Shown: one piece after another, positions 2,860-9,550 of the stretch
Numbering within the stretch: position 1 is the stretch's first letter
How the letters are laid out: the number at the start of each line of letters is the position of its first letter
NCBI GenBank assembly: GCA_902984215.1
Contig: CADWAF010001777.1
Span: forward strand, 1 to 11,671
Source of the DNA: Willaertia magna
Lineage: Eukaryota; Heterolobosea; Eutetramitea; Acrasida; Naegleriidae
Direction of reading: 5' to 3'
DNA: 11,671 bases
Notes under the pieces: model-generated
Told to the model about the DNA's origin: nothing
The model's database searches: none
Seen by the model: only the letters and a program-made list of their open reading frames with translations
Made by a program: the position numbers and the translations under genes

Positions 2860-5700
2860 TAAATTCAGTTGTTATTATTTAATTATATAAAGATAAAAAT
2901 TATAAAAATTTTTTTTATTTAAAAAAAATCAAAAATAAATAAAATTAATTTATAAAAAAATAAAAAAATTAAAAATTATTAACATTATTTTTTTATTAAC
3001 AATAATAATGTATTACTTAAAAATTATATATAAAGTATAATAATAATATATATTTTTTTATTAAATTATTGATATTTTTTATTATTTTATTTAAAAATTT
3101 TAAAACTTTTAACAAAATTATTTAAAATATTAAAATATTATTAAATTAAATAAAAAATATTTTAAATAAAACAATAAAATTAAAAAAATTAATAATTTAA
3201 TATTTTTTAAAATTTTTGATTAAATTATTATTATATTTTTTTAAAATATAAAATAATTAATATATAATTAAATATTTTTTAATTTATTTTGTTTACTATT
3301 TGTTTTAATTTTTTAATATTTTTTATGTTTAATTTTTTTTAAAATTTATAAATTAAAAATAAAAATAATCTATAAAATTACTGAAAAATAAGAAAAATAT
3401 TTTTTATTTATTTTAATTTACAAAGAAAAAATTTAAAAACTTAAAAAAAAAAAACTAAATAATTAAAAAATATTTAAAATAAATTAATAAAAAATACAAA
3501 TTAATAAAAAAAATAATATATTTATTAAATATTTTTTAAATATTTTTTTAATATTTTTTATAATTAATTTATTTTTTTTTCAATTTATTATTTATTTATC
3601 TATTTTTTTTGACTATTTTATTTATTAAAATAATTAAATAAAAAAATATTATTAATTAAATAAATAAAAAGTTAAATTACTTATTAAATTAATTAAAATC
3701 TAAATAAAATTAATTAAAATCATAATATAATTAAAAATAATCTTTTATTTTTTTTTAATAATCTTTATATTCAAAATAATTATTTTAAATAATTTTTTTA
3801 ATTAAAAAAAATTATTAAATTATATATAATCTTATACAATCTTATTTAAAAAAACTTTATTATATTAATAATTATTTAATTATTTTTATTTAATTTTAAT
3901 AACTTTAAAGTTATTAAAATAATTTTAAAAAAAAAAATTTATATTAATCTTTTTTCACAATAATTTATCTTAACAGTAAATAAAATATAAACACTATTTA
4001 CTAAATTATTTATTTTTTATTCTATTGTGTCTTTTTTTTTAATATTATTTAGTTTTTTTTAATTTTTAATTAACAATTTATATTTTTTGTTTTTTTTCTT
4101 CTTTTTTTTTATATTTACCTTTTCAACTTCTCGATCTAAATATTTTTAAAGGATTGACTGTTTTTATTTTTTTTATTTGAGAGTTAATTTAAAAAAAATT
4201 TTTATTTTTTTTATTTTTTTAACTTTAATAATAACTTTATATAATATATAATACTGATGATTTTAATAAAAAAATTAATAAAATAACTTTTGATTATTTA
4301 TTTAAATTTTAAAATAACAATAATAATCCTAATATTTAAAATAAAAATAAAAAAATAAAAAATATTAATTTTATTTACAAAATTCTATAATATTTTTAAA
4401 ATATTTTATATTACTAATAAATATTATTTATAATTAGATAATATTAATGTTATTTATATTAAAGATAAATTATAATAAATATATGAAGAACTAAAAGAAA
4501 ATAATTTTTAAATATTAATTTATTTTAAAAATTTATTTCAATTTTTAATAATTAATAATAAAATAAAAAAAGTAATTATAATTAAAAAAATTATATTTAA
4601 AAACTTAGATGAATTATTTAATAAATAGATTGATAATAATTATAAATATTTTAATGATAAAAATAAATAATAAAAGATTAAAAAAATATTAAATATTTTA
4701 TTTAAATAAAAATAATTTTATATAATAATAATAAAATTTATATAAATTTATATTGTTTTAAAAAAAAAATAATTTTTTTAAATAAATAATTTAAATAAAA
4801 TTAATATTTTATTAAATAATATAAATTATATTATTAATAATATAATTTATATAGATTTTATAAAATTTTATAAAAAATCTTTATTTTTTTCTTTAAAATA
4901 ATTATAAAATTACTAAATTTATTAAAAAATACAAAATTAAAACTAAACTTATATTTTTTAAAAAGTTTAATAAAAAAAATAAAAAATATATTATTTTATT
5001 ATCTTTTAAATATTGTTATTTTATTTATTTTTAATATTATTATTATTGATTATTTTTTATTTTCTTTAAATAACTTTATTAATTTATTAATCTATTATAA
5101 ATAAAATTATTATAAATACTATTAATAAATCTTTTAATTTTATTTTTTATTAATATTATATATTTTTTATATTTATAATAAAAATATTTTTAAAAATTTT
5201 CTTAATATTAATTATTAATTTAATTATATATTCTATTTTAAAAAGTTTTATTTTTTATAAAATATTTTTTATATTTTTATTTAATATAAAAATTAAATTA
5301 TTTATTTTAATTTTAATTAATTTTAAATTTATAAATAATATAAATAAATTAATTTGTTTATAATAATAAATTTAATAAAATATTTAATTTTATATATATT
5401 ATATAAAATATAATCCTTATAATCTTAAATATAATCAGTTTTAATAATTTTTTTATTTTAATAAAATATTTAAAATAATTTAAATATATCTTGATTATAA
5501 TATTTTTTAGATTATATAATGAATATTATATATTATTTTTTTTATGAATGTTTTTGGTTTAAATGTTATGATTTAAAAAAGTGGTTGACATAATATTTGG
5601 TATATAGATTATAGTTAAATTTAATATTTTATTTATTTAATTTAGTTTTTCTATAAATTATTATTTATTTTAAAAAAAATATTTTTAAAATAAAAAGAAA
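2860..5700. other. About 2.8-kb near-pure A/T block, no gene
   Basis: Most 60-base lines here contain zero to three G or C residues (about 3 percent G+C by spot counts; 4081-4140 is richest among those checked). This is far below even the neighbouring intergenic DNA. No ORF, RNA gene or long repeat is visible, apart from homopolymer runs and a palindrome. By size and composition it could be ordinary spacer in an extremely biased genome, an origin region, or a short A/T-rich centromere-like element. Confidence 0.7.
4819..4852. repeat. Perfect 34-bp A/T palindrome
   Basis: Both 17-base arms are exact reverse complements with no spacer, so the segment could extrude as a cruciform. It consists only of A and T. 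Confidence 0.75.
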
Positions 5701-5743: not shown

Positions 5744-5834
5744 TCCTTAATACTACGGAGTTGAGAAACGTTTCCGTCACGAGTATGTAAGCACGAGTAG
5801 AGGAAACTGTTTCTAAACGACGGCTAGTTAAGGA
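5744..5834. repeat. Imperfect inverted repeat / long hairpin at the edge of the A/T block
   Basis: The outer arms TCCTTAA (5744-5750) and TTAAGGA (5828-5834) are exact complements. Inside them GAAACGTTTCC (5765-5775) faces GGAAACTGTTTC (5802-5813), and further partial pairing extends each arm to about 30 bases around a loop near 5776-5801. The arms are clearly richer in G/C than the DNA to their left. It could be the end structure of a small mobile element or a structured non-coding RNA; the sequence does not decide. Confidence 0.5.
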
Positions 5835-5837
5835 TAG

Positions 5838-6012
5838 AATTTTCTTTAACAAAAAAAATATGTTAATTGCTTTTGTGGTTTTGTGTTAGAGTAAGGCATC
5901 TTGGAGGTGATGGATGAAAATGTTGAAGATGAAATTTTTTTTAACGAAAAAAATATATTAATCACTTAAGTGAATTTGTATTAGAGTCAGGTATATTGGA
6001 GGTGATAGATGA
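5838..6012. repeat. 95-bp tandem duplication, two diverged copies
   Basis: Copy one (about 5838-5917) and copy two (about 5933-6012) run in register with a 95-bp period. Shared landmarks are TTAAC/TTAACG, GTTAGAGT/ATTAGAGT and TTGGAGGTGATGGATGA/TTGGAGGTGATAGATGA. On the minus strand both copies read Ser-Ser-Ile-Thr-Ser then Asn-Thr before stops, so a former short coding repeat is possible but not shown. Confidence 0.6.
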
Positions 6013-6658: not shown

Positions 6659-7258
6659 TTATTTAAATAATTTGGCAAATTCTTCAAGCACGTATTTGTT
6701 ATTGCGCAACTCGCCAACACTACAAGCAGCTTGTTCAGTGCTTTGGATTGAAAAAGCTAACTGTTGTGAAAGTTCTTTTACTCCCTTGCAGTCGTTGTTA
6801 TATGACCCGTTATTAAAAGAACATGCATTGATATCATTGCAATATGCCATTCCGTTGTTTTTCATACCGTGGTTAATTATAAGCGGATAGTTGCTTGATG
6901 CATCCTTCATTGATTCAACTTTTGTATCCTTTATTGGTTCATCAAAAAGTTGTTGTTCTTGTTCACTTGAACTGGTTAATTTTTGTTTTTTAGTTGTAAC
7001 GGTGCGTGGCTTTTGAAATTTCAAAAGGATTACTGTGTCTTGGTCAGTAATTGCATCACTTAAATACTTTGAGCCTTGAACAGAGAAAAATGTAGCATCT
7101 TCGATTTGTTTATCCTTTGCGTAATCTTTATACATAATGTGTTTTTGCAAAAGGTCTTTCAATTGATTTAGGGTATGAGGATGTGGTACTGAAAACGAAA
7201 CTTTTTTCTTTAAACCTCCCAAGCAAACGTCGCAAGTAATGGTTTGCTGATTATTCAT
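6659..7258 (-). CDS. Small protein with probable ubiquitin-like (beta-grasp) N-domain and a prion-like Asn/Gly motif
   Basis: 199 residues, ATG at 7258 after an A-rich leader, stop TAA at 6659. I do not recognise the gene. Residues 6-82 alternate short strands with one amphipathic helix (about 29-42) and end in YLSDAITDQDTVILLKF, which looks like a ubiquitin/PB1/doublecortin/CIDE-N-type beta-grasp fold. A Lys/Ser/Glu-rich linker follows (about 83-120). Residues 134-151 (NNGMAYCNDINACSFNNG) match, without gaps, the two motifs of the divergent neighbour. The C-terminus (about 158-199) is probably helical. No signal peptide or membrane segment is seen, so it is likely cytosolic. Sharing a motif and a promoter region with the neighbour suggests an adaptor or effector working with it; this is inference. 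The open frame and codon use support a real gene. Confidence 0.75.
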   Translation of the reverse strand: MNNQQTITCDVCLGGLKKKVSFSVPHPHTLNQLKDLLQKHIMYKDYAKDKQIEDATFFSVQGSKYLSDAITDQDTVILLKFQKPRTVTTKKQKLTSSSEQEQQLFDEPIKDTKVESMKDASSNYPLIINHGMKNNGMAYCNDINACSFNNGSYNNDCKGVKELSQQLAFSIQSTEQAACSVGELRNNKYVLEEFAKLFK

Positions 7259-7457
7259 TTTTTTAAAGTTGGAAAATGAACCATTTATACCGGAACTTCG
7301 AGTAGTTTAAAATATCGTTACCCAATGAATTTCATGGTACCTATGGATGTAGTTATCGGAATTTAATTACCGGAATTTAATTACCGGAATTTAATCAGTA
7401 TTTGAAAGAAAGTTATTGGAAGTAATTTTAAAATAATCAACAAAAAAAAATCAAAAA
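7259..7457. promoter_or_regulatory. Divergent promoter region between the motif-sharing genes
   Basis: This 199-bp gap separates the two start codons, so it must hold both promoters. It contains three in-register 14-bp units (TTATCGGAATTTAA once, TTACCGGAATTTAA twice) at 7353, 7367 and 7381. Related words are TATACCGGAA near 7286-7295 and TTATTGGAAGTAA at 7413. Five copies of a TAYYGGAA core, spread between two divergent starts, look like binding sites for one regulator driving both genes together. Poly(A) tracts precede each ATG. Confidence 0.55.
7353..7394 (+). repeat. 14-bp x 3 tandem repeat in the divergent promoter
   Basis: The copies start at 7353, 7367 and 7381; the last two are identical and the first differs at one base (T for C). 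Each contains the CGGAATTTAA core. Confidence 0.8.
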
Positions 7458-8624
7458 ATGGCAGACCGCTCAATGAATAACTTCGGTATACTTGATAGTG
7501 AAAACGTAAACAATAATTCTTTCAACAATGGAAAACAAACACCAAGTTATAGTAATGCAAATTATGGAATTATTGGTAGTCGCAATATTCAAGGAAATAA
7601 TTTCAATAATACCACCGAGAATACTTTTACGTCTTCAAAAGAACAGGTAGATGTTGTAGTTCAAACAGCTCTAAAATTAGAAATGGATAAAGCCATCCAG
7701 TATTTTAGTAGTAATGGTTTCAACATTAGTCAGTATGGTGAATATTTTAAAGGTACAGGTTTTATAAATAACAAGCATTTCAGTATCATATTTGCTTGTT
7801 CTTATGACATGAATTCCGTTAATGCAGCAAAGTTGGCTTCTGTCGTTCGATCAGTATTTGATGTAAAACTTTTCTGTATGATAGGGATATGTGCTGTAAA
7901 AGAAGGAAAATTAAAAATGTTTGACGTGGTCATTCCTGATCAAATTCAATTTGCTGGTACTGGTAAACAAACTGATAATGGATTACAGCATACACAAGAA
8001 ACTGTTCGTTTAAAAGATAAGCTGAGAATTGTTGCCAATAGGATGAACCAAAACACTTTTGTAGAAAGAATAATGAAATTTCTCAACAAACAGTACATAC
8101 CAACATACACCACTTTTCATGTATCAATTCTTGCGAGATTATTAAACTACAAAACTGAAGGTGAAGAATTTATTGACTTTTGTTTTAACAAATTTCGTGA
8201 ATACAGAACATATTTAACAAGAATGAAAAACAATGGATTGATAAGTGGAACTTTTGGATCTACTCTTGATATTGAGTGTACCGAAAAAGGTAAACAATAT
8301 TTCGAAGAGGTGTTGCAAAACACTGATAACGAAATTGAATATTTCAGTAACCCTAACTTTATGATTGTAGCCGAGAAACAAGTTGCACAAACTACAAATT
8401 TTGTTGCAGCAAACAGCGATCCTTTTGGTGGAGCTACAGACAGACGTACCAGCGTTATTGATATGGAAGGCTATGGCTTTTCAAAGGTGTTGGAAGAAAA
8501 GGATTTTCTCTTTGCAAAGTGTGGGGTGGATTATGGAAATGAGGAAAAAGATGACAAAATTCAAGAAGATGCCTGTACTGTAGCAGCTGTGTTTTTATAC
8601 ATGTTTCTTGAAGGATGGAATTGA
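7458..8624 (+). CDS. PNP/UDP-phosphorylase-family protein with two N-terminal Asn/Gly motifs
   Basis: 388 residues, intron-free, ATG at 7458 after an A-rich leader, stop TGA. Residues 8-25 (NFGILDSENVNNNSFNNG) and 35-52 (NYGIIGSRNIQGNNFNNT) are two copies of one motif, 27 residues apart; the divergent neighbour has a third. The enzyme domain starts near 64. E75 fits the catalytic Glu of the MTA/SAH nucleosidase branch, 141-160 (MIGICAV...FDVVIP) is the family core, VIDMEGYGF at 333-341 holds the ribose-binding Met-Glu (E337), and the GVDY motif at 356-359 carries the catalytic Asp, D358. Between about 198 and 290 lies an insertion with a winged-helix look (LTRMKNNGLI...CTEKGKQYFEEV). The enzyme would act on a nucleoside or nucleotide; the substrate is unknown. 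Known relatives include bacterial Detocs-type ATP-cleaving effectors and PNP domains of fungal NLRs. G+C is higher (about 32-48 percent in counted stretches) than in the TPR and nicotinamidase genes. Confidence 0.85.
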   Translation: MADRSMNNFGILDSENVNNNSFNNGKQTPSYSNANYGIIGSRNIQGNNFNNTTENTFTSSKEQVDVVVQTALKLEMDKAIQYFSSNGFNISQYGEYFKGTGFINNKHFSIIFACSYDMNSVNAAKLASVVRSVFDVKLFCMIGICAVKEGKLKMFDVVIPDQIQFAGTGKQTDNGLQHTQETVRLKDKLRIVANRMNQNTFVERIMKFLNKQYIPTYTTFHVSILARLLNYKTEGEEFIDFCFNKFREYRTYLTRMKNNGLISGTFGSTLDIECTEKGKQYFEEVLQNTDNEIEYFSNPNFMIVAEKQVAQTTNFVAANSDPFGGATDRRTSVIDMEGYGFSKVLEEKDFLFAKCGVDYGNEEKDDKIQEDACTVAAVFLYMFLEGWN

Positions 8625-9039: not shown

Positions 9040-9157
9040 CAAAATTTACACCTTTTGAAGGCTTAATACCTTAATATTTTCATATAATTCAGGATGAGTT
9101 AATAAAAATTCTACAGCTTCTTTAATTTCTTGTATTTGATCTTCTAAACCATTAATT
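9040..9157 (-). pseudogene. Fragment of 26S proteasome regulatory ATPase Rpt2-like gene
   Basis: The minus strand encodes about 35 residues: NGLEDQIQEIKEAVEFLLTH, then PELYENI. After a two-base slip, GIKPSKGV follows in another frame. This is the region just before the Walker A loop of proteasomal AAA ATPases, closest by eye to Rpt2 (PSMC1), where the intact pattern is GGL-x-x-QIQEIKE-x-VE and GIKPPKGV. The frameshift, the loss of Walker A and everything else, and the join to an unrelated gene show it is dead. Pro-to-Leu and Pro-to-Ser changes fit G:C to A:T decay. Other Rpt subunits are possible sources. Confidence 0.75.
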
Positions 9158-9550
9158 GATAATCATCTTTTCTAGAACTTTTTGTAAAAATAAAGCACTA
9201 GTTGAAGATAAAACAACTTTTTCATCAAAAGGTAAGAATAGTAAAGGTATTGCTTCAAATCCTGTTGCGATAACAATATTATCGGTTGTAACACGTTCTT
9301 CCTTTTCATCTAAACCTTTAACTAAAACTTCATTCTTATTTACAATACTACCTTCACCTTTAAAGTATTCAACTTTATATTTCTTAAATAAAAACTCAAT
9401 ACCTCCAGTTAATCCTTTAACTGCTTTATCTTTTTGAGCCATCATTACTCCGACATCCATTGCTAAATCTTTATATTAGATACCCCACTTTTTAAATGTT
9501 GTTCCGTGAGCTTCATAATATAAGTAAAATGTATGTAATAAAGCCTTTGA
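9158..9550 (-). pseudogene. Fragment of dihydrolipoamide dehydrogenase (E3)
   Basis: Reading the minus strand from about 9550, SKALL...YYEAHGTTFKKWGI is followed by an in-frame TAA. It continues as YKDLAMDVGVMMAQKDKAVK, GLTGGIEFLFKKYKV, IVIATGFEAIP, FLPFDEK and SSTSALFLQKVLEK. This is the N-terminal FAD-domain region of mitochondrial E3, starting right after the redox-active disulfide and stopping just before the NAD-binding glycine motif. A 102-codon ATG-to-stop stretch (9152-9460) survives but is only a piece of the 470-500-residue enzyme. The internal stop and both truncations make it a pseudogene. Several differences from the family pattern (ATGSE to ATGFE, STGAL to STSAL, KVPEK to KVLEK) are C-to-T or G-to-A type. 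Confidence 0.85.

Follow-up and report, generated by a model that had tools for sequence, protein, structure and literature searches.

A divergent gene pair in the heterolobosean amoeba Willaertia magna encodes a putative nucleosidase of the bacterial immune-effector type, here called P, and a small orphan protein, S, which probably share an 18-residue Asn/Gly motif. The pair lies in an 11,671-nucleotide stretch of contig CADWAF010001777.1 (assembly GCA_902984215.1), referred to below as the window, in which the two open reading frames (ORFs) diverge from an intergenic region of 199 bases. The motif is present twice near the N-terminus of P and once in the C-terminal half of S. It is quite possible, though short of probable, that homotypic contact between these motifs, possibly of the cross-beta kind, lets S recruit and activate P, with destruction of ATP as the outcome. 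The observations behind this proposal are the shared motif, the family and fold of P, its conserved catalytic acids and the divergent adjacency of the two genes. A prior interpretation of the window from its letters alone (the sequence-only reading) had located all three motif copies with the correct positions and sequences, had noted that adjacent genes carry them and had proposed an amoeba-like host; each of these points is confirmed.

The shared motif and its likelihood by chance

The three motif copies align without gaps (Table 1). N1, G3, F15, N16 and N17 are invariant, positions 4, 7, 10 and 14 vary among the copies in the manner that the sequence-only reading had described, and charged residues occur among positions 6, 8 and 9. 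BLOSUM62 scores are 56 between the two copies in P, 38 between the first P copy and S, and 25 between the second P copy and S. Identical residues are encoded by differing codons at 5 of 9 positions between the two P copies, 6 of 8 between the first copy and S, and 4 of 6 between the second copy and S; the similarity is thus not the product of a recent DNA duplication.

A profile built from the two P copies only was applied to 144 ORFs of at least 120 residues, drawn from a 256,517-base sample of the genome. The S site scores 14.8 bits and ranks above all 55,498 sampled segments (next best, 14.2), including 2082 that contain five or more Asn residues, and a score as high occurs in 3 of 2880 shuffled ORFs and in 3 of 5000 shuffles of the S tail. 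Shuffling of the raw pair, a check that had been named along with the original claim, is less decisive: the best P-S 18-mer score (38) is matched in 56, 75 and 86 of 3000 shuffled pairs with global, 20-residue and 40-residue block shuffling, or 2–3%. In none of 150 shuffles under each of the three schemes does the score summed over the motif sites equal the observed one. The internal repeat of P is unexceptional, being equalled in 4 of 140 ORFs. The outcome therefore depends on the null that is chosen, with a sharp profile result and marginal raw pair scores, and sharing of the motif by P and S is probable, supported at ~0.001 to 0.05 per pair in a post hoc comparison that leaves some doubt.

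One relative of S carries the motif. This 158-residue hypothetical protein of W. magna spans S residues 42–199 and has a single difference, Cys140 to Ser at motif position 7, the same residue as in both P copies, by which the profile score rises to 18.4 bits. With one difference in 158 residues, located inside the motif, the relative is too close for retention of the motif to be informative.

Protein P

Judged by sequence and fold, P belongs with the PNP immune effectors. It matches the PADLOC profile PDC-M60C (expect value, E, 1.6e-14) and Effector PN-superfamily (E 4.7e-9), Pfam returns PNP_UDP_1 alone (E 0.02), and fold comparison assigns P to the fold of MTA/SAH nucleosidase (MTAN). Three acidic residues of P occupy positions that we take to be catalytic in MTAN, and mutants of two of these, Glu12 and Asp197, are named in the titles of PDB entries. 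Identity to the 12 aligned relatives is ~19–23%. The plasmid relatives examined lie mostly in defence-like operons, which together with the effector profiles agrees with the part of the sequence-only reading that put the phosphorylase-like protein in an immune setting.

Two parts of P depart from a plain nucleosidase core. The winged-helix-like insertion is modelled as a helix (residues 236–258), two strands (262–266 and 270–274) and a second helix (276–287) at a predicted local distance difference test score (pLDDT) of 37–70; by eye, a similar insertion is present in CBASS and EAD1 relatives, and not in those of the REC type. The N-terminal tail, hardly covered by the other 12 alignment rows, is modelled at pLDDT 31–37 over residues 1–50 and is probably disordered. 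REC-type and CBASS relatives have a regulatory domain at the position of this tail.

Among 5.8 billion proteins, in a search that covers relatives sharing short words with the query, P finds only itself, both as a whole (E ≤ 1e-3) and with residues 58–388 (E ≤ 10). GTDB genomes contain no close relative of P, and viral contigs none of P or S. In a viral fold library, P resembles giant-virus nucleoside phosphorylases at 7–8% identity, a likeness of fold only. The genome searched here comprises 19.24 Mb in 894 contigs (GC 26.9% in 20 sampled stretches), and within it P and S each match only themselves at E ≤ 10. Absences from the genome searches are inconclusive because this assembly is well below the 36.5 and 47.6 Mb of the W. 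magna assemblies in print (two strains; GC 24.7–24.8%).

Protein S

S has no relative beyond the W. magna protein described above among the 5.8 billion proteins (E ≤ 10). Its coding score is positive for residues 42–199; for residues 1–41 it is near zero (-1.7), although still the best of the six frames. The model of S has a mean pLDDT of 30.8 and contains a strand-strand-helix arrangement over residues 4–39 at pLDDT 35–39. The possible beta-grasp-like domain listed for the N-terminus is a weak guess, since residues 1–41 are near neutral in coding score and have no counterpart in the W. magna protein. Residues 1–92 have no Pfam match, and their two PDB matches (E 1 and 3) are taken as chance. 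The same holds for the single plasmid match of S (E 3) and for an NCBIfam purine-synthesis family, which S matches at E 0.006 with 15.6 bits against a cut-off of 387.

Table 1. Features of the P/S pair; positions are those of the window.
Feature	Residues	Positions	Strand	Sequence or remark
S gene	1–199	6659..7258	-	ORF, 199 aa, orphan protein
S, N-terminal part	1–92	6983..7258	-	small beta-grasp-like domain possible (by eye, a weak guess); 1–41 from this assembly alone
S, motif copy	134–151	6806–6859	-	NNGMAYCNDINACSFNNG
Intergenic region common to P and S		7259..7457		199 bases; copies of a 14-base-period unit at 7347–7395
P gene	1–388	7458..8624	+	predicted 388-aa PNP-superfamily nucleosidase, immune-effector type
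P, Asn-rich N-terminal tail	1–57	7458..7628	+	28% Asn; holds both motif copies
P, motif copy 1	8–25	7479–7532	+	NFGILDSENVNNNSFNNG
P, motif copy 2	35–52	7560–7613	+	NYGIIGSRNIQGNNFNNT
P, predicted nucleosidase core	62–388	7641..8621	+	includes the insertion
P, Glu75	75	7680..7682	+	position of MTAN Glu12; invariant in 13 sequences, profile alignment to MTAN chains
P, winged-helix-like insertion	~196–287	8043..8318	+	alignments read by eye
P, Glu337	337	8466..8468	+	part of the ME conserved in MTAN; invariant across the 13 aligned sequences
P, Asp358	358	8529..8531	+	position of MTAN Asp197; invariant in 13 aligned sequences

Proposed mechanism and alternatives

In the proposed mechanism, P would be a latent nucleosidase of the bacterial immune-effector type that acts on purine nucleotides, most likely ATP, and its tail, probably disordered, would present a homotypic interaction motif twice. 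S could be the sensor of the pair, though it is without a known domain: its N-terminal part may sense or relay a danger signal, with the motif copy placed behind it. Such a signal would cluster or release S, whose motif would then draw in several P molecules by their tails, probably through templated stacking of a cross-beta (amyloid-like) kind. Signalling would thus run from S to P, and the crowded nucleosidase domains would turn active through oligomerisation and destroy ATP, so that the infected amoeba is killed or stalled. W. magna has been sequenced as a known or potential host of giant viruses (available part of PMC11702301) and is reported to eliminate Legionella (available part of PMC6892926). 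A more specific form of the proposal appears unlikely, namely that this is a new amyloid-type motif of Discoba, a lineage apart from the fungi, animals and bacteria, through which a small non-NLR protein templates assembly of an ATP nucleosidase by way of a tandem N-terminal tail, forming a suicide switch of bacterial type by ATP depletion against giant viruses or intracellular bacteria. If the proposal is true, ATP-depletion immunity and motif-templated signalling would reach a little-studied branch of the eukaryotes, and with two small genes the case is directly testable.

Several observations weigh against the proposed mechanism. In the enzyme, an Asp occupies a site that is Arg in 8 of 12 REC-type relatives, and GICAV replaces GICAG, so enzyme activity is not certain; in a tree of P and 19 others, P lies on a very long, unresolved branch. 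Among the relatives, a Detocs-like operon (L023) has a first gene with neither a PADLOC match nor a Pfam family above cut-off, and the Detocs call there consequently rests on gene layout and on the M60B/M60C matches. S (199 residues) is not an NLR or STAND protein, has no match over cut-off in Pfam, NCBIfam or PADLOC and shows no recognised fold. His130, Cys140, Cys146 and Cys157 lie in and around its motif (residues 130–157, positions 6788–6871, minus strand), and a metal-binding knuckle in this region is conceivable, though the W. magna relative has Ser in place of Cys140 and the tail of P has no Cys. The same stretch of S resembles phage gp32 in four PDB matches (E 0.14–0.22), which are taken as chance. 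The PUASM, PP and RHIM patterns are all absent from P and S. The sequence-only reading had suggested a search of the genome for further motif copies: the tail of P has one weak match (E 0.35), an LRR protein with an Asn-rich tail, and the tail of S has no second copy in the searched genome. At the level of raw scores, the P-S match over 18 columns is expected 0.038 times by chance, as estimated from 1500 random pairs of real ORFs (0.12 with 14 columns, 0.070 with 16, and 0.013 with 20 and 22), and 2 of the 43 adjacent ORF pairs whose search space equals that of P and S or is smaller reach a score of 38, as do 11 of 103 adjacent pairs of all search-space sizes.

Two alternatives carry the most weight, namely that P and S form a soluble docking or inhibitory pair and that their tails resemble each other by chance. 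Under the former, which we regard as somewhat unlikely, the motif is not amyloid-forming and P and S dock, in soluble form, to the same third protein or to each other, S perhaps being an inhibitor or chaperone in a toxin-antitoxin-like arrangement. The charged residues among motif positions 6, 8 and 9, the probably disordered tail and the lack of fit to any of the three amyloid patterns tested agree with docking, and a divergent pair with one common intergenic region would also suit a regulator and its effector; against this, amyloid signalling pairs are reported to be genome neighbours, with the motif doubled in one protein and single in the other (available part of PMC9815663). A coincidence or convergence of Asn-rich tails, which would leave P an immune-type nucleosidase and S an unrelated neighbour, is unlikely. 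It draws on the raw-score and shuffling figures and on the Asn content of the genome, 8.6% across 89 sampled ORFs, and it is opposed by the profile rank of S above even the Asn-rich segments, by the match at the non-Asn positions G3, V/I10 and F15 and by the sole change in the W. magna relative, which moves towards the profile.

It is very improbable that P is merely a housekeeping purine nucleosidase of the MTAN kind with an irrelevant tail. The fold, the catalytic residues and the Pfam result would suit such an enzyme; however, P differs from MTAN in its insertion, similar to that of CBASS and EAD1 relatives, in its motif tail and in its defence-profile matches. Elsewhere in the genome, PNP_UDP_1 (PF01048) has two matches over the Pfam cut-off and one below it. 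One of these proteins is MTAP-like by eye, and the MTAP-like protein of the genome has no defence-profile match at E ≤ 1e-4. The lack of any homologue other than itself in the protein search is also unlike a housekeeping gene.

Comparison with known systems

The PNP-type effectors nearest to P are those of CBASS and Detocs, Cap17 and DtcC. Cap17/DtcC-type effectors are ATP nucleosidases (Rousset et al. 2023, as cited in the available parts of PMC12881547 and PMC10952713). Like P, they combine a nucleosidase core, the catalytic acids and a PADLOC profile match with a regulatory N-terminal part, and the CBASS and EAD1 relatives also have the insertion. P differs in its amoeba host, in the tandem-motif tail that replaces a receiver or receptor domain and in having no recognised sensor gene nearby. 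ATP-destroying immune effectors are known in bacteria, and related domains occur in fungal NLRs (available parts of PMC10197012 and PMC12881547).

The closest parallel to the pair as a whole is PUASM, in which PNP_UDP effectors and NLRs of fungi (Pezizomycotina) are paired through an amyloid motif (available part of PMC9815663). Both arrangements have a PNP-type effector and an adjacent gene with a common short motif. In PUASM the effector carries the motif at its C-terminus and the NLR at its N-terminus, whereas P has two copies at the N-terminal end and its partner S, which is not an NLR, has one in its C-terminal half; the PUASM pattern FxGxGxQxxGxGxF is lacking from both proteins. HRAM, PP/RHIM, sigma and BASS1–10 likewise place a short motif, in one or more copies per protein, in adjacent genes. 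P and S differ from them in the absence of an NLR partner and in matching neither PP nor RHIM, the patterns of this group that were compared. By analogy, P and S may function as amyloid signalling pairs do, but they are not counted among such pairs here, because the receptor and the motif placement differ. The lineage, the non-NLR partner, the reversed placement and doubling of the motif on the enzyme and its lack of fit to PUASM, PP and RHIM set the pair apart. In the literature covered, mostly outside subscription journals, there is no report of a pair of the P-S type in Discoba.

The immune or cell-death switch that the sequence-only reading had put forward is partly supported. Its placing of an enzyme where a pore-former might be expected has a fungal precedent in PUASM (available part of PMC9815663), and for that reason an enzyme as the effector of a motif pair is not new. 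Its model of an NLR plus an effector does not fit S, and the likeness it drew to known motif types fails for PP, as it does for PUASM and RHIM. Elsewhere in the genome, there are at least 13 NACHT and at least 4 NB-ARC matches; 4 of the 17 listed were scanned and none is a clear NLR. The best families of these four (L005 and L064–L066) are ATPase_2, AAA_22, ArsA_ATPase and ABC, and L005 reaches the NACHT cut-off exactly.

Bacterial relatives of P

Some relatives of P have architectures of their own. A Ktedonobacteraceae protein (L029, 3501–5081) ends in a TIR-like stretch (TIR_2, E 5.8e-4, below the Pfam cut-off), and a double depletion of ATP and NAD is possible in this case. In Mesorhizobium, a Cap15-type cyclic-dinucleotide receptor domain is joined to a nucleosidase (L022, 3554–4996), and the adjoining genes are DncV-like and of the ThiF family. 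A PNP protein of Streptomyces acidiscabies (L040, 3800–4840) has a C-terminal Gly/Asn tail that resembles motif copy 2 of P by eye; the tail is found in no other ORF of the 6.7 kb around the gene. Apart from these relatives, the receiver part of PDC-M60C matches weakly (E 0.002) at G000:C309:23832-24002, on the minus strand, within a 921-residue open frame that is probably an ordinary receiver protein.

The locus and its surroundings

The neighbours of P in the window are S, a TPR protein, an isochorismatase-family protein, a ribosomal L1 protein and a reductase fragment; none is a recognised sensor gene (CD-NTase, kinase/REC or STAND). Scans of the window for tRNAs and Rfam families gave no match. 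A 24-mer from the repeated unit of the intergenic region has no other site in the searched genome with up to two mismatches. Two contigs carry the P sequence in the protein listing, and the longer measures 1,292,540 bases, more than the largest sequence of either printed W. magna assembly (0.22 and 0.6 Mb); the contig of the S relative has 346,278 bases. The P copy and the S relative are therefore probably from different assemblies, and the adjacency of P and S is seen in this window alone.

Downstream of P, a flavoprotein fragment at 9152–9475 on the minus strand (102-residue ORF; Pyr_redox_2, E 6.3e-7) is dihydrolipoamide-dehydrogenase-like by eye, and with stops on either side it looks like a decayed copy. 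Between the TPR gene and the P/S pair lies a stretch of ~2 kb at only 4.6–6.4% GC (3001–5000). Beside the pair, a 91-base unit is repeated at 80% identity at 5827–6012, and the 16-base sequence GAAACGTTTCCGTCAC is present twice, at 5765 and 6380, 615 bases apart.
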